Source: Amycolatopsis sulphurea
GTDB taxonomy: Bacteria; Actinomycetota; Actinomycetes; Mycobacteriales; Pseudonocardiaceae
Assembly: GCF_002564045.1 (NCBI RefSeq)
Contig: NZ_PDJK01000002.1
Coordinates: 4,588,001 to 4,652,000, forward strand
Length of the DNA: 64,000 nt
Reading direction: 5' to 3'
Shown here in pieces: positions 8,685 through 64,000 of this stretch. Position numbers and translations under genes: made by a program. A model generated the notes under the pieces. The model searched no databases, was not told where the DNA came from, and worked only from the letters and a program-made list of their open reading frames with translations. Each line of letters begins with the position of its first letter. Position 1 is the first letter of the stretch.

Positions 8685-8739
8685 GTCCGTGAAGGGGCCC
8701 TTCACGGACTCAGAGTCCGTGAAGGGCCCCTTCACAGCC
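8685..8739. repeat. dispersed palindromic repeat, copy A (core only)
   Basis: Two hairpin-forming units of the form GTGAAGGGGCCCTTCAC separated by ACTCAGAGT; the pair also forms one long inverted repeat centred on ACTCAGAGT. Only the core is present here. Other copies are at 13316, 27656, 35591 and 43033. It sits 38 bp after a plus-strand gene and 2 bp before the end of a minus-strand relic. Confidence 0.9.
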
Positions 8740-10431: not shown

Positions 10432-10448
10432 ATCCGCCGCTGAACCGG

Positions 10449-10997
10449 TTACAGATCCCGCACGTGCAGCAGCGACCGCACACCCAGCCTGCGGCGAGGT
10501 TCGTTGCTGCGCAGGCCGTCCACGATCACCGCGGTGCCGAGCCAGGTCGCGCCGGCCTCGGCGACCAGCGACCGGGCGGCGCTCGCCTGGCCGCCGGTCT
10601 CGATCCAGTCGTCGACCAGCAGCACCCGGTTTCCGCCCGAGACGAGGCGGCGGCGGAAGCCGAGGGTCAGGTGGCGGTCTCGGTAGTCCGGTGCGGACGT
10701 GCGGTGCCGCCAGGGGTCCGAGTCCGAGACCGGGCGGCGGTTCTTGCGCAGCTCCACGAAACCGGCGCCGAGTGCGACCGCGACCAGCGGGCCGAGGAGA
10801 CAGCCGCGTGATTCCGGGCCGAGGACCACGTCCGGCTGCTCGTCGGCGAACAGCTCGGCCAGGGCGGGACCCAGGTCGGCCAGCAAGCCGGGCACACGCC
10901 ACCAGCTCGCCGGGTCGGGGTAGCGGCCGTCGTCCATCCGGTCCCCGAGCACGACGGTGGCTTCGCGGATCCGATCCGCCACGGTGCTGGTACGCAT
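10449..10997 (-). CDS. phosphoribosyltransferase, Apt-like
   Basis: 182 residues with the type I phosphoribosyltransferase fold. The PRPP-binding loop is VLLVDDWIETGGQA near residue 125, where the two acidic residues and the following Thr/Gly contact the ribose 5-phosphate, and PDVVLGPESRGCLLG marks the first core strand. It resembles adenine phosphoribosyltransferase, but an adenine substrate is not certain and a regulatory or salvage role is possible. The ATG 10997-10995 follows GAAGGC. It is divergent from the DinB protein, with a TGTCCAC-type palindrome between them. Confidence 0.8.
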   Translation of the reverse strand: MRTSTVADRIREATVVLGDRMDDGRYPDPASWWRVPGLLADLGPALAELFADEQPDVVLGPESRGCLLGPLVAVALGAGFVELRKNRRPVSDSDPWRHRTSAPDYRDRHLTLGFRRRLVSGGNRVLLVDDWIETGGQASAARSLVAEAGATWLGTAVIVDGLRSNEPRRRLGVRSLLHVRDL

Positions 10998-11072
10998 GCC
11001 TTCGATGGTCGCCTACGCTGGTCGTGGTGGCGAGCGAATTTCGGCCGGAGAGCCCGCTCTCCGTCGCTGTTT

Positions 11073-11087
11073 TGTCCACAGTGGACA
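11073..11087. promoter_or_regulatory. 15-bp palindrome TGTCCACAGTGGACA
   Basis: An exact inverted repeat with a single central base in the divergent interval between the phosphoribosyltransferase and the DinB-like gene. It may be an operator for either promoter, though its core CCACAGTGG also recurs inside genes elsewhere in the window. Confidence 0.5.
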
Positions 11088-11155
11088 TATGGTGGAGTCG
11101 CCTGGTTTGCGCGTTCAGGATCGGCCCGCCACCGACGACCGGAGGGAGGTCCACC

Positions 11156-13243: not shown

Positions 13244-13315
13244 CACCGGTACCCGTGTGATCGGCACCGGCATTCCGTGACCGTGCGCGAAGATCGCCGC
13301 GCACGGTCACGGAGC

Positions 13316-13483
13316 GCAGGGTGTCGGCAAAGTCGGTGTGGAGGTCTGTGAAGGGGCCCTTCACAGACTCTGAGTCCGTGAAGGGCCCCTTCACAGCCCC
13401 GAAACCGGTCCGGCGCACGCCACGAGGTGGTCGCACACACCTCCGCAGCGCCCGCCGCCGGGTCCCCGACCAACCCTGGTCAC
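13316..13483. repeat. dispersed palindromic element, copy B (near full length)
   Basis: Order: CAGGGTGTCGGCAAAGTCGG at the left end, the double hairpin (13344-13400), then a conserved non-coding arm starting CGAAACCGGTCCGGCGCACG and running to CCCCGACCAAC. The first hairpin reads GTCTGTG...CACAGAC where copies A and C have GTCCGTG...CACGGAC, a compensatory change. It lies between convergent genes. Confidence 0.85.
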
Positions 13484-13514
13484 GGAGCGGCCGAGCGCTC
13501 GCGCTCAGCGGGCC

Positions 13515-22724: not shown

Positions 22725-22778
22725 TGACGTCACACCGCTGGCCTAGACTCGGATGTCCCGGTCAGCAGGTGACCGGGG
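22725..22778 (+). promoter_or_regulatory. tig promoter and leader
   Basis: TAGACT at 22744-22749 fits an actinobacterial -10 box. The palindrome TGACGTCA (22725-22732) lies 11 bp upstream of it. The predicted leader contains a hairpin with arms CCCGGTCA and TGACCGGG (22757-22778). No clear -35 is seen. Confidence 0.45.
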
Positions 22779-22830
22779 CCGTCCCGAGGGACGTTCTCAC
22801 CCATATCTTTTACCGCTCGAGGAGAAGACC

Positions 22831-24207
22831 TTGAAGAGCACCGTCGAGCAGCTCAGCCCGACGCGAGTGAAGATCAATGTCGAGGTGCCGTTCGACGAGC
22901 TCAAGCCGAACTTCGATCGCGCCTACCGCAAGATCGCCCAGCAGGTGCGCATCCCGGGCTTCCGGCCCGGCAAGGCGCCCGCTCGCGTCCTGGAAAGCCG
23001 GATCGGCCGCGCGCCGGTGCTCGACGAGGTCGTCAACGAGGCCATCCCGGCCAAGTACATCGAGGCCGTCCGGGCCGGCGAGGTGCGCACGCTGGGCCAG
23101 CCCGAGTTCGAGGTGACCAAGCTCGAAGACCGCGACGTGCTGGAGTTCAGCGCCGAGGTCGACGTGCGCCCGGCCATCGAGCTGCCCGATCTCGCGGGCC
23201 TGGAGATCAGCGTCGACGACGTCGAGACCACCGACGAGGAGGTCGCCGAGCAGCTCGACGAGCTGCGGGCCCGGTTCGGCACGCTGACCGGCGTCGAGCG
23301 CGCGGCCGAGAACGGCGACTTCGTCTCCGTCGACCTGTCCGCCACGGTGGACGGCGCCCCGGTCGAGGAGGCCACGACCAGCGGCCTGTCCTACGAGATC
23401 GGCTCCGGCCAGCTCGTGGACGGCATCGACGAGGCGATCATCGGCGCGAACGCCGGCGAGAGCAAGACCTTCACCACCAAGCTGGTGGCCGGCGAGTACG
23501 CCGGGCAGGACGCCGAGGTCACCGTGACCGTGCAGTCGGTCAAGCAGCGCGAGCTGCCCGAGGCCGACGACGAGTTCGCCCAGCTGGCCAGCGAGTTCGA
23601 CACCATCGAGGAGCTGCGCGCGGACCTGCGCGAGCGCCTCGGCCGGGTGAAGAAGATGCAGCAGGGCGTGCAGGCCCGGGACAAGGTCCTGGACATCCTG
23701 CTCGAGCGCACCGAGGTGCCGATCCCGGAGAAGGTGCTCGAGTCCGAGGTGGAGAACCGCAAGCACGACGCGGTGCACCCCTACGACCACGACGAGGCGA
23801 AGTTCGCCGAGGCGCTGGCGGCCGAAGGCCGCAGTGTCGAGGAGTTCGACACCGAGGTCCGGGAGGAGTCGGAGAAGGCCGTCCGCACGCAGCTGCTGCT
23901 GGACACCATCGCCGACAACGAGCAGACCACGGTGGACGACGGCGAGCTGACCGAGCGGATCCTCTACCAGGCCCAGCGCTTCGGCGTCAGCCCGGACGAG
24001 TACGTGCAGCGGGCACAGCAGTCCGGCCAGCTCACCGCGATCTACGCGGACGTGCGCCGTGGCAAGGCGCTGGCCTCGATCGTGCGCGGCACCACCGTCA
24101 AGGACGCCTCGGGCGCCGAGGTGGACCTGAGCGAGCTGTTCGGCGGCGACGAGGACGCCGAGCAGGCCCCCGCGACCGAGGAAGCGGTCACGACCCCGGC
24201 AGAGTAA
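22831..24207 (+). CDS. tig: trigger factor, ribosome-associated chaperone and prolyl isomerase
   Basis: 458 residues from TTG 22831 (MKSTVEQLSPTRVKINVEVP), with GAGGAGAAG 5 nt upstream. Residues 1-~115 are the ribosome-binding tail domain (GFRPGKAPARVLESRIG is the signature near residue 44). The FKBP-like PPIase domain (~160-245) contains NGDFVSVDLSATVDGAPVEE. The long C-terminal arm follows, ending in an acidic tail (GGDEDAEQAPATEEAV). It lies directly upstream of clpP1-clpP2-clpX, the standard actinobacterial and E. coli order, linking nascent-chain folding to proteolysis. Confidence 0.97.
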   Translation: MKSTVEQLSPTRVKINVEVPFDELKPNFDRAYRKIAQQVRIPGFRPGKAPARVLESRIGRAPVLDEVVNEAIPAKYIEAVRAGEVRTLGQPEFEVTKLEDRDVLEFSAEVDVRPAIELPDLAGLEISVDDVETTDEEVAEQLDELRARFGTLTGVERAAENGDFVSVDLSATVDGAPVEEATTSGLSYEIGSGQLVDGIDEAIIGANAGESKTFTTKLVAGEYAGQDAEVTVTVQSVKQRELPEADDEFAQLASEFDTIEELRADLRERLGRVKKMQQGVQARDKVLDILLERTEVPIPEKVLESEVENRKHDAVHPYDHDEAKFAEALAAEGRSVEEFDTEVREESEKAVRTQLLLDTIADNEQTTVDDGELTERILYQAQRFGVSPDEYVQRAQQSGQLTAIYADVRRGKALASIVRGTTVKDASGAEVDLSELFGGDEDAEQAPATEEAVTTPAE

Positions 24208-24216
24208 AGCTGTAAG

Positions 24217-24258
24217 CGAACTTGGGCGGTGTCAGGCATTCTGCACCGCCCGAGTTCG
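24217..24258 (+). terminator. hairpin between tig and clpP1
   Basis: Arms CGAACTTGGGCGGTG and CACCGCCCGAGTTCG (15 bp, one mismatch) around a 12-nt loop, 10 nt after the tig stop. There is no U-tract. TAGGGT at 24260-24265 follows directly and could be the -10 box for clpP1, so the structure may be a terminator, a regulator site, or both. Confidence 0.6.
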
Positions 24259-27639: not shown

Positions 27640-27655
27640 CCGGGCCGTGAAGGGA

Positions 27656-27780
27656 CCATGCACGGCCTCAGAGTCCAGGGTGTCGGCAAAGTCGGTGTGA
27701 GGGCCTTGCGCAGACGGCGTAGGTCCGTGAAGGGGCCCTTCACGGACTCAGAGTCCGTGAAGGGCCCCTTCACAGACCTG
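27656..27780. repeat. dispersed palindromic element, copy C (left arm plus core)
   Basis: The left arm (CAGGGTGTCGGCAAAGTCGG and its outer flank with CCGTGAAGGG) is followed by the double hairpin at 27726-27780. The long right arm of copies B, D and E is missing. It lies between two convergent genes. Confidence 0.85.
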
Positions 27781-28708: not shown

Positions 28709-29093
28709 CTGAGCCTCCCTCTTCGCACAGGGTAGGACGTCAACCGGAGCAAGATCGTTGCGTCTGGTGATCTTTCTCGCGGATGTTAACCAAGTCATAA
28801 CCGGCATCGGACAACGCGGGCGGTTTCGGGCGGCTCGGCCACTGTGGACGTTCCGGTGACTCCCATGTGGACTTTTGTGGACTTTCCACCGGGCCGGAAT
28901 CCAATCGTGACATTCTCCCGGTACAAGCCCCGTCGAGCGCGGTGCCAGGTGCGCACATGCGCCCAGGGCGCCGGCGCTGCCCCGGCCGCGGAATCGTGGC
29001 GAGGCGAACCAGACATACGACATTTGGGCGGTGCGATGTCGACAGTTTGGTAATACATTTCGTGGGCACCCGACTGTTCGGAGGACTCTGACA
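28709..29093. other. 385-bp divergent promoter interval
   Basis: Between the esterase (minus) and the OFA transporter (plus). Frames here are open but not protein-like. GGAGGA at ~29080 serves the transporter. No strong palindrome or gene is seen. Confidence 0.5.
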
Positions 29094-30589: not shown

Positions 30590-30648
30590 GCACAGCGGCG
30601 CCCACACTGTCCTTTGTGGTCAGTGCGGGGCTCGCTGCAGCCGGGCGG

Positions 30649-30762
30649 TCAGGCCGTTCGCTGCGCGACCCGCTTGAGGTACCAGACGGTCCAGGCGGTG
30701 GTGACCAGCGCGACGACCGGCTCGATCAGGCCGGTCACGGTGGCCGCGACCGGGATCGGCAA
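30649..30762 (-). pseudogene. possible small membrane protein or remnant
   Basis: The minus strand reads PIPVAATVTGLIEPVVALVT followed by TAWTVWYLKRVAQRTA and a stop, one membrane helix with a basic tail. The only start is TTG 30762 without a ribosome-binding site, and the upstream residues become unlikely. It may be the tail of a lost gene. Confidence 0.25.
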
Positions 30763-30924
30763 GGAGCCGGCTTGAGCGCCGGGTGCCTCGGAGGCGGGGT
30801 GGGTGTCGGTGGCTGGTTTGAGCGCGTGGTTCGGTCCGGGTGTCTGGTGCGTCGATCGGGCTCTATCAAGCCGGTTGCGCTCGGAGGTGGTTGCTTGGCA
30901 AGGGATTCACCGCGTTTCCTGCTC

Positions 30925-31020
30925 GTGGAGCGTGCGTGGTCCTGGGCGGTGTGGCCGCGTTGTTCGATCCCCGGTGCGGATGAGTGCCGCCAGCTCGCGG
31001 TGCTCGGAAACGACGTGTGA
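30925..31020 (-). pseudogene. degraded duplicate of the 3' end of the GntR-type regulator
   Basis: The stretch containing GCCAGCTCGCGGTGCTCGG matches 31190-31300 inside the FCD domain of the neighbouring regulator with scattered mismatches and small gaps. Flanking blocks (30853-30895 versus 31065-31105; 30603-30625 versus 31133-31155) also match. The copy has no intact frame, so it is a decayed partial duplication. Confidence 0.5.
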
Positions 31021-31172
31021 GAGATCCGCTGTGTCACGGCGCACGGTCCCGGACGGAGCCTCGCTCGTTGATCAAGTCCGTTGCGCACGCAGGTGGTGGC
31101 CCGGCAAGACCTTCATCCTGTCACCTGGCCACACTGTCCTTTATGGTCAGTTCGGCGCTGATCCGCGGGCAG

Positions 31173-31847
31173 TTACCCGCGGAGTTCGGCGAGCAGGCTC
31201 TGCCGTGCGGAGTGTACGTGGTCCTCGGCGGCGCGGGCGAGCCGTTCGGTCTCCCCGGCACGGATGAGCGTCGCCAGCTCGCGGTGCTCGGCGACCACGC
31301 GCGCGCGGTAGTGGCGGTGGCTCAGGGAAATCCGCTGCAGCTGGAACAGGAACACCTGTGAGCGCACCGCATGCCACGCCTCGCGGAGCCGGGTGTTGCC
31401 CGCGGCGGCGTACACCTGGTCGTGGAACGCGATGTCCAGGGCCAGCAGGCGCGGGCCGTCGGCGTCTTCGCGGACCGCGGTGGTCAGCTCGGCGACGAGG
31501 GCGTCCAGCCCGGCCAGCTCGTCCGGCGTGGCGTGCGTGTGCGCGGTCGTGGCGGCCAGCCGGTCCAGTGCGGCGCGGACGGAGTAGACCTCTTCCACGT
31601 CCGCGGCGGTCACCTCGACCACGGTGGTCGGCCGGTGCCAGCCGCCGTGGATCAAGCCCTCGCGGGAGAGCAGCGCCAGGCCTTCCCGGACCGAACCGCG
31701 GCTGATCCCCAGCGAAGTGGCCAGCTCGACCTCGCGCAGCGGGGCGCCGGGACGGAAGTGACCGGCGAAGATCGCTTCCCGCACCCGGTCGGCGGCCTCC
31801 TCGGCGAGCCCGCGGCGGGCCGCCTTCCGGAGCTGGGTGACTTCCAC
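31173..31847 (-). CDS. GntR-family regulator, FadR/FCD subgroup
   Basis: 224 residues. N-terminal winged helix: [20 protein letters not shown] then [20 protein letters not shown] (recognition helix). C-terminal FCD ligand domain (~85-220), with metal-type residues in [16 protein letters not shown] and [12 protein letters not shown]. It is divergent from the VOC-SDR pair with an A/T-rich interval holding TGTC-type half sites, so autoregulation and control of those two genes is the natural reading. The ligand is probably a small carboxylate (family knowledge). Confidence 0.85.
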
Positions 31848-33079: not shown

Positions 33080-33086
33080 GAATCCG

Positions 33087-35525: not shown

Positions 35526-35590
35526 TCGGTGTAGTCCTCCGGAATCAGCCTGAACTGTGCTGCCCGGCCTGTGTATAGGGGCCGGAAAGC

Positions 35591-35846
35591 GGTGAAGGGC
35601 ATCTTCACGGACTCAGCGTCCAGGGTGTCGGCAAAGTCGGCGTGGAGGGCCCTGCGTAGCTGCGGAGGTCTGTGAAGGGTCCCTTCACGGACTCTGAGTC
35701 CGTGAAGGGCCCCTTCACGGACCCGAAACCGGTCCGGCGCACGCCACGAGGTGGTCGCGCACACCTCCGCATCGCCCGCTGCAGGGTCCCCGACCAACTT
35801 TGCCGGGCCCCTGGACGCGGAGTCCGTGAAGATGCCCTTCACCGCC
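35591..35846. repeat. dispersed palindromic element, copy D (with terminal inverted repeats)
   Basis: The most complete copy, about 256 bp. The ends are inverted repeats: left GGTGAAGGGCATCTTCACGG, then CAGCGTCCAGGG and CGGCAAAGTCGG; right, read on the other strand, GGTGAAGGGCATCTTCACGG, then CCGCGTCCAGGG and CGGCAAAGTTGG. Inside lie the double hairpin (about 35670-35727) and the conserved arm beginning CGAAACCGGTCCGGCGCACG. No protein is encoded and no clear target-site duplication is visible. This layout is MITE-like. Confidence 0.85.
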
Positions 35847-35867
35847 ATGCTCGGGGGCGGCGCAGCG

Positions 35868-36185
35868 TCAGCCGGAGCCCACCTGGTACTCGATCGAGGT
35901 CTCGTTCACGCCGGGGCCGCGCACCTCGTGCACGGTGACCGCGGCGGCCACCAGGACCACCAGGCCGATCAGCGCGGCGATCCCCGGCCAGCGGCTCGGG
36001 GCCGCCGTGCCGTAGCCCGCGCCGTGGCCGGCGGAGCGCGCGCGGCGTTCGCGGCGGCGCTTCTTCTTCAGCTCCTTCTTCGCGCCGAGCCACGCGTCCA
36101 GCTCGGCGTGCTTGCGCCATTCCGGGTCGATCAGGTCCGGATGGGTCTCGATCGAGTAGTCGTCCGGATCCTCCGGCCGGGTCAT
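35868..36185 (-). CDS. single-pass membrane protein, hypothetical
   Basis: 105 residues from ATG 36185 with GAGGTGG upstream. A cytoplasmic N-terminus ([20 protein letters not shown]), a strongly basic stretch ([19 protein letters not shown]), then one helix ([20 protein letters not shown]) and a short outer tail. It is divergent from valS (60 bp) and conserved in style with small proteins beside actinobacterial valS, but the function is unknown. Confidence 0.7.
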
Positions 36186-36231
36186 CCTTGCCACCTCTTT
36201 CCCCCTGAGCGAGCCCGCGGCGGCGGGTTCG

Positions 36232-36245
36232 TAGACTTGTCCATT
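36232..36245 (+). promoter_or_regulatory. valS -10 box, leaderless promoter
   Basis: TAGACT at 36232-36237 is followed by 8 nt and then the GTG start of valS, with no Shine-Dalgarno sequence. Transcription from such a box would begin at or next to the GTG. Confidence 0.55.
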
Positions 36246-38873
36246 GTGACCGAGAACGCTCCGCAGCAGAAAACCGACCTTCCGGGTGCCTGGGACCCGG
36301 CCGCCGAAGAAGCCCCGATGTACGACCGCTGGGTAGCGGCCGGGTACTTCACGGCCGATGCCTCGTCGGACAAGCCGCCGTTCTCGATCGTACTGCCGCC
36401 GCCGAACGTCACCGGCAGCCTGCACATGGGCCACGCGCTCAACCACACCCTGATGGACGCGATGAGCCGCCGCCGCCGGATGCAGGGCTACGAGGTGCTC
36501 TGGCTGCCGGGCATGGACCACGCGGGCATCGCCACGCAGAACGTGGTGGAGCGCCAGCTCGCGGGGGAAGGGCTCTCCCGCCACGACCTGGGCCGGGAGA
36601 AGTTCGTCGACCGCGTCTGGGAGTGGAAGGCCGAGTACGGCGGCCGGATCCTCGGCCAGATGAAGCGGCTGGGCGACAGCGTGGACTGGTCGCGTGAGCG
36701 GTTCACCATGGACGAGAACCTGTCCCGGGCTGTGCAGACGGTCTTCAAGAACTTCTACGACGCGGGCCTGATCTACCGTGCCGAGCGGATCATCAACTGG
36801 TGCCCGCGCTGCCAGACCGCGCTGTCGGACATCGAGGTGGACCACAGCGAGGACGAGGGCGAACTCGTCTCCATCCGCTACGGCGGGGGCGCGGACGCGA
36901 TCGTCGTGGCGACCACCCGCGCGGAGACCATGCTGGGCGACACCGGCGTCGCCGTGCACCCCGAGGACGAGCGGTACGCACACCTGGTCGGCACCGAGGT
37001 CGAGCTGCCGCTGACCGGGCGTCGCATTCCGATCGTCGCGGACCGCCACGTTGACCCGGAGTTCGGTACCGGCGCGGTGAAGGTGACCCCGGCGCACGAT
37101 CCGAACGACTTCGAGATCGGCCGCCGGCACGACCTGCCCATGCTGACCGTGATGAACGAGCGCGCGGAGATCACCGTGGCGGGCCCGTTCGAGGGGCTGG
37201 ACCGGTTCGAGGCGCGCCCGGCCGTGGTCGCCGCGCTGCGCGAGGACGGCCGGATCGTCGCGGAGAAGCGGCCGTACCTGCATTCGGTGGGGCACTGCTC
37301 GCGGTGCGACACCGTGGTGGAGCCGCGGCTGTCGCTGCAGTGGTGGGTCAAGGTGGCGGAGCCGGCCAAGGCCGCGGGCGACGCGGTGCGCGACGGCCGC
37401 ACGAAGGTGCACCCGGCCGAGCTGGAGAAGCGGTACTTCGACTGGGTCGACAACATGCACGACTGGACGATCTCGCGCCAGCTGTGGTGGGGGCACCGGA
37501 TCCCGGTCTGGTACGGCCCGGACGGCGAGGTCGTGTGCGTCGGCCCGGACGAGCAGCCGCCGTCCGGCGAGGGCTGGACCCGGGATCCGGACGTGCTCGA
37601 CACCTGGTTCTCCTCGGGCCTGTGGCCGATGTCCACCATGGGCTGGCCGGAGCAGACCGCGGACCTGGCGAAGTTCTATCCGACCAGCGTCCTGTCCACC
37701 GGCTACGACATCCTGTTCTTCTGGGTCGTGCGGATGATGATGTTCGGCGTGCAGGAGATGGACGGCCGGCCGCCGTTCGACCACGTCTACCTGCACGGGC
37801 TGATCCGCGACGCGAACGGCAAGAAGATGTCGAAGTCGCGCGGCAACGTGATCGATCCGCTGGAGTGGATGGACGCCTACGGGGCCGACGCCACCCGGTT
37901 CACCCTCGCCCGCGGCGCGAACCCGGGCGCGGACATGGCGCTGGCCGACGAATGGGCCGCGGGCTCGCGCAACTTCTGCACGAAGCTGTGGAACGCCAGC
38001 AAGTTCGCCATGATGAACGGCGCGGACGCCACCGGTGCGCTGCCCGCGCCCGGGGAGCTGACCGAGGCGGACCGCTGGATCCTCGGCAGGCTGGCCGCGC
38101 TCGTGTCCGAAGTGGACGAACTGTTCGAGCAGTTCCAGTTCGCCAAGGTGGCGAACGCGCTGTACCAGTTCACCTGGAACGAGCTGTGCGACTGGTATCT
38201 CGAACTGGCGAAGGTGGCGCTGTACCAGGGCGACGAGGCCCGGGTCGCGGCCACGCGCGCGGTGCTCGGGCACGTGCTGGACGCGGTGCTGCGGCTGCTG
38301 CACCCGTTCATCCCGTTCGTCACCGAGAAGCTGTGGACCGCGCTGACCGGCGGGGAGTCGCTGGTGATCGCGGCCTGGCCGAAGCCGATCGAGGGCTACG
38401 CGGATCCGGCCGCCGCCGCGCGGATCTCGGATGTGCAGAAGCTGGTCACCGAGATCCGCCGGTTCCGGGCCGATCAGGGCCTGAAGCCGGGGCAGAAGGT
38501 GGTCGCGCGGCTCGCCGGGGAGGCGCTCCCGGCCGGGCACGAGGACGCGATTCGCTCGCTGGTCCGGCTCACCCCGCCCGACGATGGATTCGCGGTGAGT
38601 GCCTCGCTTGAGGTGGCGCTGGCCGGTGGCGTGGTCACCGTCGAGCTGGACACCTCCGGCACCATCGACGTGGCCGCCGAACGCAAGCGGCTGCAGAAGG
38701 ATCTCGGTGCGGCACAGAAGGAACTGGCTCAGACCGAGGGCAAGCTCGGCAACGAGTCGTTCATCGCGAAGGCCCCCGCTCCGGTGATCGAGAAGATCAA
38801 GGTGCGCCGGGAGACCGCCGTGGCGGACATCGCCCGGATCGAGGCGCGGCTGGCTGCGTTGCCCGCTTCCTAG
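36246..38873 (+). CDS. valS: valyl-tRNA synthetase
   Basis: 875 residues from GTG 36246 ([17 protein letters not shown] follows). Class I signatures: HMGH at residues 60-63 and KMSKS at 527-531. The editing domain contains [20 protein letters not shown] and [17 protein letters not shown]. The zinc-site region has [11 protein letters not shown] and [11 protein letters not shown]. The C-terminal ~70 residues form the tRNA-binding coiled coil ([20 protein letters not shown]). Length is normal for bacterial ValRS. It is probably leaderless and ends at a strong terminator. Confidence 0.98.
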
Positions 38874-38897
38874 CGGGGGTCCAGCCGTCTTCCTTTC

Positions 38898-38929
38898 CGA
38901 TGCCACGCGGCCCAGGCCGCGTGGCATCG
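38898..38929 (+). terminator. valS rho-independent terminator
   Basis: A perfect 14-bp stem (CGATGCCACGCGGC and its complement) with a CCAG loop, followed by CTTTTG. It lies 24 nt after the valS stop. Confidence 0.9.
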
Positions 38930-38962
38930 CTTTTGTCCGTGCCTGCTTCCTGAGCGGTGGAG

Positions 38963-39004
38963 GGGCCTCGTGGTGGCTGTGCCGGAGTGGCCACCACGAG
39001 GCCC
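38963..39004 (-). terminator. terminator hairpin of the SGNH hydrolase gene
   Basis: Perfect 15-bp arms (GGGCCTCGTGGTGGC and its complement) around a 12-nt loop, 19 bp beyond the stop of the minus-strand hydrolase. Together with the valS terminator it insulates convergent genes. Confidence 0.75.
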
Positions 39005-39022
39005 GACGCCGGCGGCGGTGAC

Positions 39023-39898
39023 TCAGCCGCCCAGCTGCTGCCGGATCACCCCGGCGATCCCGGCCATTCCCGCGGCGAGCGGGTGGTACGCGGCCGCGGC
39101 GAACAGGTTCGTGTCCTTCCCGTTGATCCACGCCGCGTCGCCGGCGCAGGCATCGTGCCCGGCGGACGGGGTGTAGATGTCCACATAGGACGCTTGACCG
39201 TCGGCCCGTACGGCGTCTTCGATCGCCGAGTTCAGGGCTTCTTCGACGCTGGAGAGCCAGGCGTAGTCACCGTCCGCGAACGGCAGGACCTCCGGGCAGC
39301 GGCCGGATTCCGGGGCGATCCGGGGATAGCCGACGGCGAGTACCCGCGCCCGCGGCGAGCGCGCGTGGATCCCCGCCAGCACCTGCCGCACGCGTTCCCC
39401 TGTCACCGGGAGCAGCGCCTTGATCGTGTCCACCCCGTCCACCGTGAAGTGCTGCCGGCACGGGCTCCCGGTGGGATCGCCCGGTCGCAGCCCGGGGCAG
39501 GTGCCGATGAGCTTGCCGAACACCTCGGAGTCGTTGCCGCCGATGCCGAGGGTGACCAGGTCCGTGTCCGGGCGCAGGGCGGAGAACTGCGGCGGGTTGA
39601 CGCCCAGCGGCACCTGCTGCGCCTGCGTCATGTGCGTGGTGTCCGCGCTGGAGCAGCTGACGTCGGTGGCGGAGTCCACGTGCAGGGCCGCGGCGACGCG
39701 CGCCGGATAGTTGCCTGTCGATCTCGCGCAGCCCAGCGGATCGAGCCGGAGAACGGGGATGAACGGCCCGGCGGTGTAGGAGTCGCCGAGCGCCACGTAG
39801 TGCCGGAAACCGGGCTGTGCGGCGGATGCGGCCGTCGCCGAGGTGCCGAGCAGTGCGAGCGCGGCCAGCATCGCGAGCACGATCCGGGTGGGGCGCAT
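39023..39898 (-). CDS. secreted SGNH/GDSL hydrolase
   Basis: 291 residues from ATG 39898, with AAGGGA upstream. Signal peptide MRPTRIVLAMLAALALLGTS with an Ala-rich cleavage region. SGNH blocks: YVALGDSYTAG (nucleophile Ser), the Gly and Asn of GIGGNDSEV, and AYHPLAAGM with the catalytic His near the C-terminus. Cysteines (CARS, CSSAD, CPGL, PCRQ, RCPE, DACAG) indicate a disulfide-rich extracellular lipase/esterase like Streptomyces SGNH enzymes. It is inserted between valS and folC. Confidence 0.85.
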   Translation of the reverse strand: MRPTRIVLAMLAALALLGTSATAASAAQPGFRHYVALGDSYTAGPFIPVLRLDPLGCARSTGNYPARVAAALHVDSATDVSCSSADTTHMTQAQQVPLGVNPPQFSALRPDTDLVTLGIGGNDSEVFGKLIGTCPGLRPGDPTGSPCRQHFTVDGVDTIKALLPVTGERVRQVLAGIHARSPRARVLAVGYPRIAPESGRCPEVLPFADGDYAWLSSVEEALNSAIEDAVRADGQASYVDIYTPSAGHDACAGDAAWINGKDTNLFAAAAYHPLAAGMAGIAGVIRQQLGG

Positions 39899-43032: not shown

Positions 43033-43225
43033 CAGCCCCAGGATTCCGGCGAAGTTGGTCGGGATCCGGCGGCGGGCGTTGCGGAGGTGTGTGCGACCAC
43101 CTCGTGGTGTGCGCCGGACCGGTTTCGGGTCTGTGAAGGGACCCTTCACGGACTCAGAGTCCGTGAAGGGTCCCTTCACAGACCTCCACGGACCTCCACA
43201 CCGACTTTGCCGATGCCCTGGGTCG
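43033..43225. repeat. dispersed palindromic element, copy E (inverted orientation)
   Basis: Full-length copy on the opposite strand relative to B and D: the left end in window coordinates has CCAGGATTCCGGCGAAGTTGG and the right end CCGACTTTGCCGATGCCCTGG, the two inverted ends. The double hairpin is at about 43129-43186. Central bases are A in one hairpin and T in the other (GGGACCC and GGGTCCC), a paired change relative to G and C in A, B and C. It lies between convergent genes. Confidence 0.85.
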
Positions 43226-59863: not shown

Positions 59864-60966
59864 ACGGGACCCGGCAGGCGATCGCCGAGGCCCGCAGGCT
59901 CGTGGTCAAGGTCGGCTCGTCCGCGCTGACCACCGCGGGCAGCGGGCTCGACGTGGCCCGGCTGGACGCGCTGGTCGACGCGATCGCCGACCGGGCACGG
60001 CGCGGCGCACAGATCGTGCTCGTGTCCTCGGGCGCGATCGGCGCCGGTCTGGCGCCGCTGGAGCTGGGCAAACGCCCGCGTGACCTGGCCACCCAGCAGG
60101 CCGCCGCGAGCGTCGGCCAGCTCGCGCTCGCGCACGCGTACGCGGAGTCGTTCGGCCGGTACGCGCTCACCGTCGGCCAGGTCCTGCTGACCTCGGACGA
60201 CGTGGTCCGCCGGTCCCACTACCGCAACGCGCAGCGCACTTTCTCCCGGCTGCTCGCCCTCGGCGCGGTGCCCGTGGTGAACGAGAACGACACCGTGGCC
60301 ACCCAGGAGATCCGGTTCGGCGACAACGACCGGCTGGCCGCACTGGTGGCCCACCTGATCGGTGCCGACGCACTCGTCCTGCTGTCCGATGTGGACGGAC
60401 TGTACGACGGGGATCCGCGCTCCGGCGCCACCCGCCGCATCGCCGAGGTGCACAGCGAGTCCGATGTAGACGGAATCTCGGTCGGCATGTCCTCCTCCGG
60501 CCTCGGCACCGGCGGCATGGTCTCGAAACTCGCCGCCGCCCGCACCGCGGCCGGCGCCGGCATCCCCGTCCTGCTCGCCGCCGCCGCGAACGCCGCCGAC
60601 GCGCTCGGCAGGGCCGAGGTCGGCACCGCGTTCACCCCCGCCGACACCCGCCTGTCCGCTCGGCGTTTCTGGCTCGGCTACGCCACCGACGCCACCGGCA
60701 AACTCCGCCTCGACGAAGGCGCGGTCCAGGCCATCCTGCGCCGCCGCTCGCTCCTGTCCGCCGGCATCACCGGCCTCGACGGCGATTTCCAGGCCGGCGA
60801 CGTGGTCGACCTCGTCGACCCGGCCGACCTCCCTGTCGCGCGCGGCGTGGTTGCCTTCGATGCGGCTGAGCTGCCTGCGTTGATCGGCCGTTCCAGCCAT
60901 GAGCTTCCGGTGGAGCAGCGTCGTGAGGTGGTGCACGCGGATGATTTGGTGCCGCTGCGCCGCTGA
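59860..60966 (+). CDS. proB: glutamate 5-kinase
   Basis: 368 residues from GTG 59860, overlapping the obg stop, so translationally coupled. First step of proline synthesis. Kinase motifs [47 protein letters not shown] and [39 protein letters not shown]-terminal PUA domain (~285-368). Length normal. About 60 bp of its 3' end is repeated 129 bp downstream. Confidence 0.96.
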
Positions 60967-60998
60967 GTCGTCGTGTGTCTCTCGCGGACTCGATGGGG

Positions 60999-61060
60999 GC
61001 TGCCTGCGTTGATCGGCCGGTCCAGTCATGAGCTTCCGGTGGAGCAGCGTCGCGAGGTGG
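60999..61060 (+). repeat. duplicated piece of the proB 3' end
   Basis: 62 bp matching 60870-60931 with three mismatches (both contain CATGAGCTTCCGGTGGAGCA), in direct orientation. It ends exactly where the truncated argS begins, so it marks a rearrangement junction. Confidence 0.85.
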
Positions 61061-63612: not shown

Positions 63613-64000
63613 TCCCGACCTCCCCGTCTCACCCGAAGCAGGACGGCACTTTGCCAGAAACCGCCCGGCCTCGGTAGTTCCTGCCGAATCGGTTCCTGAT
63701 CAGTTCCCTTCGAGTCCCGGGGCCGGCCTCCCCCTCGGTACCGGTCGTCGTGCCTGTCGGCCGGTTCGTGTTGGTCTGGCGTGCCTGCTGGCTCGTGCGG
63801 TCTGGTGTCCGTGGTGCCTGCCGCCCGTGGGGTCTGGTGCCGGTCGTGTCTGCCGCTGGTCGGGTTGGGTGCCCGTGGTGCTCGCCCGGTCGGGCTCGGT
63901 GTGTCTGCCGCTCGTCGCGTTTGGTGCCCGTGGTGCCTGGCCGGTCGGGGCCGGGTGTGGTGCCTGACCCGGTCAGGCCCGGTGTGCTGGGTCCGGCCGG
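63613..64000. repeat. low-complexity right end with a 55-bp tandem repeat
   Basis: No gene is supported. Two imperfect copies of a 55-bp unit beginning GTGTCTGCCGCTGGTCGGGT lie at 63846-63900 and 63901-63955, preceded by shorter degenerate versions back to ~63750. The composition is T/G-rich on the plus strand, like 4715-4850. Confidence 0.6.

Follow-up and report, generated by a model that had tools for sequence, protein, structure and literature searches.

Long gene-end hairpins and an ISAs1-type MITE that probably inserts at their centres in an Amycolatopsis sulphurea genome

The dispersed repeat of the window (the whole analysed stretch of DNA, 64,000 nucleotides) appears to consist of two nested parts, a long hairpin belonging to the host and a mobile element that has entered it. 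The mobile part is a gene-less transposon (MITE), which is filed as ISAs1-type by its ends and its target duplication. We consider it probable that the whole pattern is explained by a family of gene-end hairpins together with this ISAs1-type MITE inserting at hairpin centres. According to this explanation, each lineage would possess long gene-end hairpins in its own sequence dialect, while the MITE, with 20-bp CAGGG... ends and a 10-11 bp duplication, would depend for its movement on an ISAs1 transposase acting in trans, of which the window genome no longer has an intact version. The MITE would prefer the centre of hairpins, so that the duplication would correspond to the hairpin's central 11 bp. 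Since it would also bring a complete hairpin in the host dialect, each insertion at a centre would split the resident hairpin and add another.

A repeat search of the window revealed a 62-nt family in five copies (A to E), far above chance, in agreement with the sequence-only reading that had first listed them. Copies B, D and E have 127-143 nt in common at 92-95% identity, and D contains a 52-nt inverted repeat (35589-35640/35794-35845, 90% complementary). In D, a MITE of 193 bp occupies positions 35621-35813 on the forward strand, between CAGGG... ends whose pairing recurs genome-wide; it starts with CAGGGTGTCGGCAAAGTCGG and finishes with CCAACTTTGCCGGAACCCTG, the ends being CAGGGTNNCGGCAAAGT. 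It is flanked by the left (35589-35620) and right (35814-35845) arms of a host hairpin, which pair at 31 of 32 positions and correspond to orthologous hairpins of relatives. The target duplication is represented on the left by the last 11 bases of the left arm (35610-35620, GACTCAGCGTC) and on the right by a copy that is diverged or palindromic (35814-35824, GACGCGGAGTC). Inside this MITE lies another hairpin (35667-35723; fold -51.0 kcal/mol, z -9.25). Copy B is a MITE with a shortened right end (13317-13478, forward strand), an internal hairpin (13346-13396) and an 11-bp duplication, GTCACGGAGCG, on either side (13306-13316 and 13479-13489). Copy E is a two-ended MITE of 182 bp on the reverse strand (43039-43220, internal hairpin 43128-43184), where a search for a duplication at up to 2 mismatches found none. 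B, D and E had been recognized as copies of one element and they are indeed MITEs, yet with the boundaries given here instead of those first drawn. Of the two copies described as partial, C, as read from the sequence, is the left-over left half of an outer hairpin (27641-27675) beside a forward-strand MITE part (27676-27779) that keeps its left end (27676-27695) and internal hairpin (27721-27779) and has lost its right end, and A (8685-8739; fold -47.3 kcal/mol, z -10.0) is a hairpin without MITE ends. The long hairpin has the form GTGAAGGGGCCCTTCACGGACTC-N-GAGTCCGTGAAGGGCCCCTTCAC and, in the five window copies, folds as RNA with -47 to -62 kcal/mol (z -9 to -11); Rfam 15 gave 0 matches at gathering score within the window. 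We agree that the window holds no transposase for this repeat. It contains other repeats as well, namely eight 276-nt tandem repeats of 70-77% identity within a long ORF (169-2400), a 30-nt repeat present four times at a spacing of mostly 32 nt (63791-63939), and a 62-nt stretch that recurs 129 bp on with 95% identity (60870-61060).

Initially, D was read as a single composite element, mobile as a whole and about 256 bp long, with the outer GGTGAAGGGCATCTTCACGG palindromes as its true ends. The good pairing of D's outer arms would suit this, as would three further loci (L004, L007, L010) where arms also lie outside the CAGGG ends. However, most MITEs are without such arms and yet have duplications directly at CAGGG...CCCTG, and the arms of D have orthologues in MITE-free relatives, which together rule out the outer palindromes as element ends and leave the composite element very improbable. 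D is thus a 193-bp MITE with CAGGG...CCCTG as its true ends, nested in an older host hairpin whose arms are the GGTGAAGGGCATCTTCACGG palindromes.

The mobility of the inner part was studied on 50 two-ended MITEs from 1.05 Mb of the window genome (6.86 Mb in 2 contigs), a region partly chosen for holding copies. They measure 128-306 bp, most commonly 173 bp. A 9-12 bp duplication at up to 2 mismatches flanks 36 of the 50 (11 bp in 19, 10 bp in 14, 12 bp in 2 and 9 bp in 1) and is perfect in 20 of the 50, while 14 of the 50 show none at that tolerance. The target-site duplications that had been proposed as a check were thus found, mostly of 10-11 bp, and these duplications, the ends and the genome-wide end pairs bear out the interpretation as a non-autonomous mobile repeat in many copies. 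Further evidence comes from G106, the nearest relative as judged by one locus (88% identity over 2.5 kb), which is colinear with the window genome over 133 kb. Among 11 gaps between genes that carry palindromes or ends in the window genome, 7 have a short, element-free counterpart in G106 (11-585 bp), and the counterpart of the D gap has a hairpin and no MITE; these eight counterparts were read, and those of A, E and a site at 4679108 are long in G106. At B the element is missing, with a short gap instead, in G106, G100 and G133, and at C it is absent from G106, where the gap is 16 bp. Relatives without the insert therefore exist, as the search for empty sites had anticipated, but intergenic DNA is too diverged between these genomes for sites exact to the base. 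It was also observed that G106 carries 1-8 kb of extra DNA relative to the window genome at 10440-11119, 28785-29005, 30602-31177, 33080-33086 and 35552-35854, and that the latter genome looks reduced compared to its relatives (6.9 Mb vs mostly 8-11 Mb).

A transposase with matching ends was found in relatives, in the form of autonomous ISAs1 elements. The one in G092 measures 1349 bp, has the same ends as the MITE and is bordered by an 11-bp duplication; its product, a transposase of 407 aa, matches NF033564 (ISAs1) with 193 bits at a cut-off of 70, and also PF13808 and PF01609. ISAs1 matches occur in 13 of the 80 genus genomes, 9 of them above the cut-off, and represent 24 distinct loci (27 rows), of which 15 have both CAGGG ends and the remaining nine are fragments or miss one end. 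A perfect 10-12 bp duplication accompanies 13 of the 15 two-ended loci; ISAs1 family elements generally duplicate 8-10 bp. The likeness shown between MITE and ISAs1 elements lies in the ends and the duplication, not the interiors, and on these grounds the MITE would be moved in trans by an ISAs1 transposase. The window genome contains an ISAs1 remnant (a match of about 61 residues with no ends close by) and no intact ISAs1 gene in its assembly, which is 97.6% complete; presumably it has lost the enzyme that moved the MITE. Two other DDE transposases situated between CAGGG ends, of 494 and 422 aa (L129, L125, L126), were considered as the autonomous partner and rejected, since their own ends show them to be separate insertion sequences within hairpins.

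Both parts of the repeat are most abundant in the window genome. The palindrome GTGAAGGGNCCCTTCAC is found there at 1290 places with up to 1 mismatch, 1140 of them exact, as against 0-11 exact copies in each of the other 79 genus genomes; it is present in 31 of 390 family genomes, and the reversed-sequence control gave 0. Single MITE ends at up to 2 mismatches number 253+252 = 505 in the window genome, followed by G157 with 92+74 (reversed control 0-8 per strand). For G106 the count of ends is 1+1, which equals its control and is at chance level, and exact palindromes are lacking there. Related hairpin centres, TNANGGACTCNGAGTCCNTNA, are spread over 21 of the 80 genus genomes, with 219 in the window genome, 162 in G096, 80 in G086, 56 in G151 and 43 each in G093 and G133. 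The repeat had been expected to be general in the genus; instead, the high copy number is peculiar to the window genome, and a related amplified form exists in one genome of another genus. That genome, G174, has its own amplified version of hairpin and MITE, with 329 exact palindromes and 35+27 MITE ends under a slightly tighter pattern. Plasmid and phage records gave no match. A sample of 516 kb of the window genome, chosen blind to repeats (at round intervals or for its synteny), yielded 10 two-ended MITEs and 37 ends, together with 30 single palindromes and 28 double hairpins.

The landing sites were analysed by joining the flanks of each MITE and counting the pairs among 20 positions around the insertion centre, with a threshold of at least 14 pairs. 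This threshold is reached by 14 of the 50 MITEs of the window genome, compared to 0.32% of 4000 random points, and 10 of the 50 have at least 15 pairs; the other 36 of the 50 lie below the 14-pair threshold. Among the matches listed for other genomes, 11 of 21 MITEs have at least 14 pairs (8/10 in G098, 2/2 in G099, 1/3 in G097, 0/2 in G092, 0/3 in G101 and 0/1 in G174), and the hairpins entered there are quite different in sequence; in G099 the exact centre of one hairpin is formed by a perfect duplication, GCATCGCATGC. Because dyad targets differ so much in sequence between genomes, MITE insertion seems to favour symmetry rather than sequence. The 15 two-ended ISAs1 elements, however, all fall short of this threshold at their own sites (8-11 of 20 pairs, random mean 8.7), so that the dyad preference is one of the MITEs and at most conjectural for the enzyme itself. 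The duplication of the autonomous elements has a C-run before it and a G-run after it, and the ISAs1 copies of relatives (L251-L276) recurrently occupy a GC-rich site like CGCCCCCC-GGGAGGGT-GGGGG. Three other types of insertion sequence in the window genome share the hairpin-centre location in 13 of 14 copies: the NF041680-type element in 5 of 5, the IS701 element in 3 of 3 and the IS4 element in 5 of 6, the sixth lying within a MITE arm. The IS4-family element is 1657 bp long, with ends CCAATGCC and 9-bp duplications (L107, L109, L111, L113, L115 and L117). At ten other DDE loci, nine had no palindrome in the stretch examined and one had a single palindrome.

The history of the outer hairpin is best documented at D, where its arms stop 22 bp beyond the 3' end of an ORF on the reverse strand (35868-39131) that is about 90% identical in G106 and has no Pfam match. 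A hairpin of the same kind is present at this site in 10 of 24 relatives, in dialects of their own (8 GTGAAGG-type, 2 AAGG-type), and absent in 14 of 24; in a set of 20 of the stretches no MITE end was found at up to 3 mismatches. Seven sequences could be aligned free of gaps, those of six relatives and the arms of the window genome joined across the MITE, with G106, G117, G153 and G131 left out since their loop or stem differs. In this alignment 97% of cells pair, and double changes occur in 10 of 24 pairs, in 17 cells, as compared to a mean of 4.4 and a maximum of 10 in 1000 shuffles, while a slide by one base reduces pairing to about 40%. Given the orthologous position, the pairing and the excess of double changes over the shuffles, the hairpin at D has been passed on in place, its stem preserved through compensatory changes. 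Mobile repeat and maintained structure had been offered as alternatives; both hold, each for one of the two nested parts, and are not alternatives.

Within the window genome, 31 solo hairpins, a set picked by a tight pattern, gave Watson-Crick pairing of 0.955 vs 0.942 when shuffled, and 6 double changes, where shuffles averaged 2.3 and reached 6 at most, so that covariation among them does not clearly exceed the shuffles. The stems of the family are about 20-32 bp long, and many lie closely downstream of stop codons. As placed by a rough home-made gene caller (of 32 rows, two fell in genes and one at an edge), 12 of 29 solo hairpins fall in convergent gaps, a class that accounts for 140 of the 627 gaps (p=0.02), and 3 of the 29 fall in divergent gaps, which account for 149 (p=0.066; two of these hairpins represent one locus). 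A U-tract after the stem is absent, at most 2 positions being about half T in the 31 solo units. Most likely the hairpins act as transcription terminators or 3'-end processing signals, which is the simplest reading of their predicted function. It was also asked whether they could be protein-binding or chromosome-structuring sites, repeated through selection and not acting as RNA signals. Perfect dyads in hundreds of copies, with one dialect per genome, would suit such sites, but the enrichment in convergent gaps and the scarcity in divergent ones fit 3' ends better, and we regard binding sites as improbable. A separate hairpin just past the ORF at 22753-24207 (24217-24258, CGAACTTGGGCGGTGTCAGGCATTCTGCACCGCCC(G/A)AGTTCG) is near-identical, including the loop, in G106, G105, G100 and G133, a constancy quite unlike the fast-changing hairpins that serve as MITE targets.

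The hairpin itself might be the mobile unit, REP/REPIN-like or moved by some other enzyme, with the MITE being merely one of several users of the target. The window genome has hundreds of near-identical hairpins, whereas 290 kb of G106 contain two that resemble the family, which would agree with such mobility; so would the solo hairpins that are missing from G106 at sites 4685087 and 4695186 and the 15 of 28 double hairpins of the blind sample that lie more than 330 bp from any MITE end. Set against this, Y1 transposase (PF01797) is absent from both the window genome and G174 (5 of 14 control genomes were positive), the flanks of the 31 solo hairpins show no flanking duplication by eye, and the hairpin at D is orthologous, with compensatory change. 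A mobile hairpin is therefore somewhat unlikely. The absence of PF01797 from these two genomes rules out a RAYT/REPIN identity; the GTAG/CGTC tag at the palindrome end is likewise absent, by eye, from the profile of the 31 solo units.

In the preferred explanation, a gene-end hairpin family entered by an ISAs1-type MITE, the hairpin carried within the MITE deserves attention. All 50 sampled MITEs carry 1-3 palindromes of the host kind at up to 3 mismatches, in a sample that is in part biased towards them. For G174 a single MITE was read, which carries that genome's own dialect, and the MITEs of G097 and G098 contain long inverted repeats, by eye of a type differing from that of their targets. 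The carried hairpin may soften the damage of insertion. A bolder proposal, which we hold as doubtful, is that the MITE is a mobile terminator that splits a resident terminator hairpin and replaces it in the host dialect, repeated rounds and conversion then unifying the dialect. Insertion would be cheap because an intact replacement is supplied, and at hairpin centres unrelated DDE transposases, recognizing the dyad or the extruded hairpin instead of the base sequence, would have a common place to land without harm.

The finding explains a puzzling nested repeat and adds IS701, NF041680-type and ISAs1-type elements to those known at palindrome centres. The many independent insertions in several species lend themselves to the question of whether the shape of DNA or its sequence guides transposases, and they hint at how gene-end repeats may be tolerated and spread. 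Moreover, a gene-end hairpin can be traced across species as its sequence changes and its stem stays. In the open-licence literature, neither this combination of MITE and hairpin, nor an Amycolatopsis MITE with its transposase, nor insertion into terminators was found described, and the accessible part of PMC12306157 does not mention Amycolatopsis. MITEs and palindrome-targeting insertion sequences are already known. What looks new is that a MITE should carry the hairpin dialect of its host and that this target should be common to ISAs1-type, IS701 and NF041680 elements.

Three known systems are closest. REP, BIME and REPIN sequences with RAYT are an established kind (accessible parts of PMC3116915, PMC2817692 and PMC3733652). 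The hairpins described here share with them the paired palindromes, the hundreds of copies and the mainly intergenic location, and differ in that there is no Y1 transposase and that the unit whose mobility can be demonstrated, a MITE, is of DDE type. MITEs derived from insertion sequences, e.g., MITEAba12, are likewise established (as far as excerpts of PMC6382973 go). ISAs1 elements and IS-derived MITEs have in common with the present MITE the short gene-less body, paired ends, target duplication and a partner insertion sequence with the same ends, while the present MITE differs by carrying the host's hairpin dialect, by preferring hairpin centres and by a duplication of mostly 10-11 bp. Finally, REP palindromes were described as targets of the IS3, IS110, IS4, IS256 and IS5 families, and ISRm22 (IS4 family) as inserted at the axis of palindromy (Tobes and Pareja, 2006; PMC1525189, accessible part). 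Judged from that part of the paper, the choice of palindromes by unrelated insertion sequences and the insertion at the axis are shared with the window genome, which adds IS701, the NF041680-type element and the ISAs1-type MITE besides IS4, and whose MITE itself carries the hairpin of its target.
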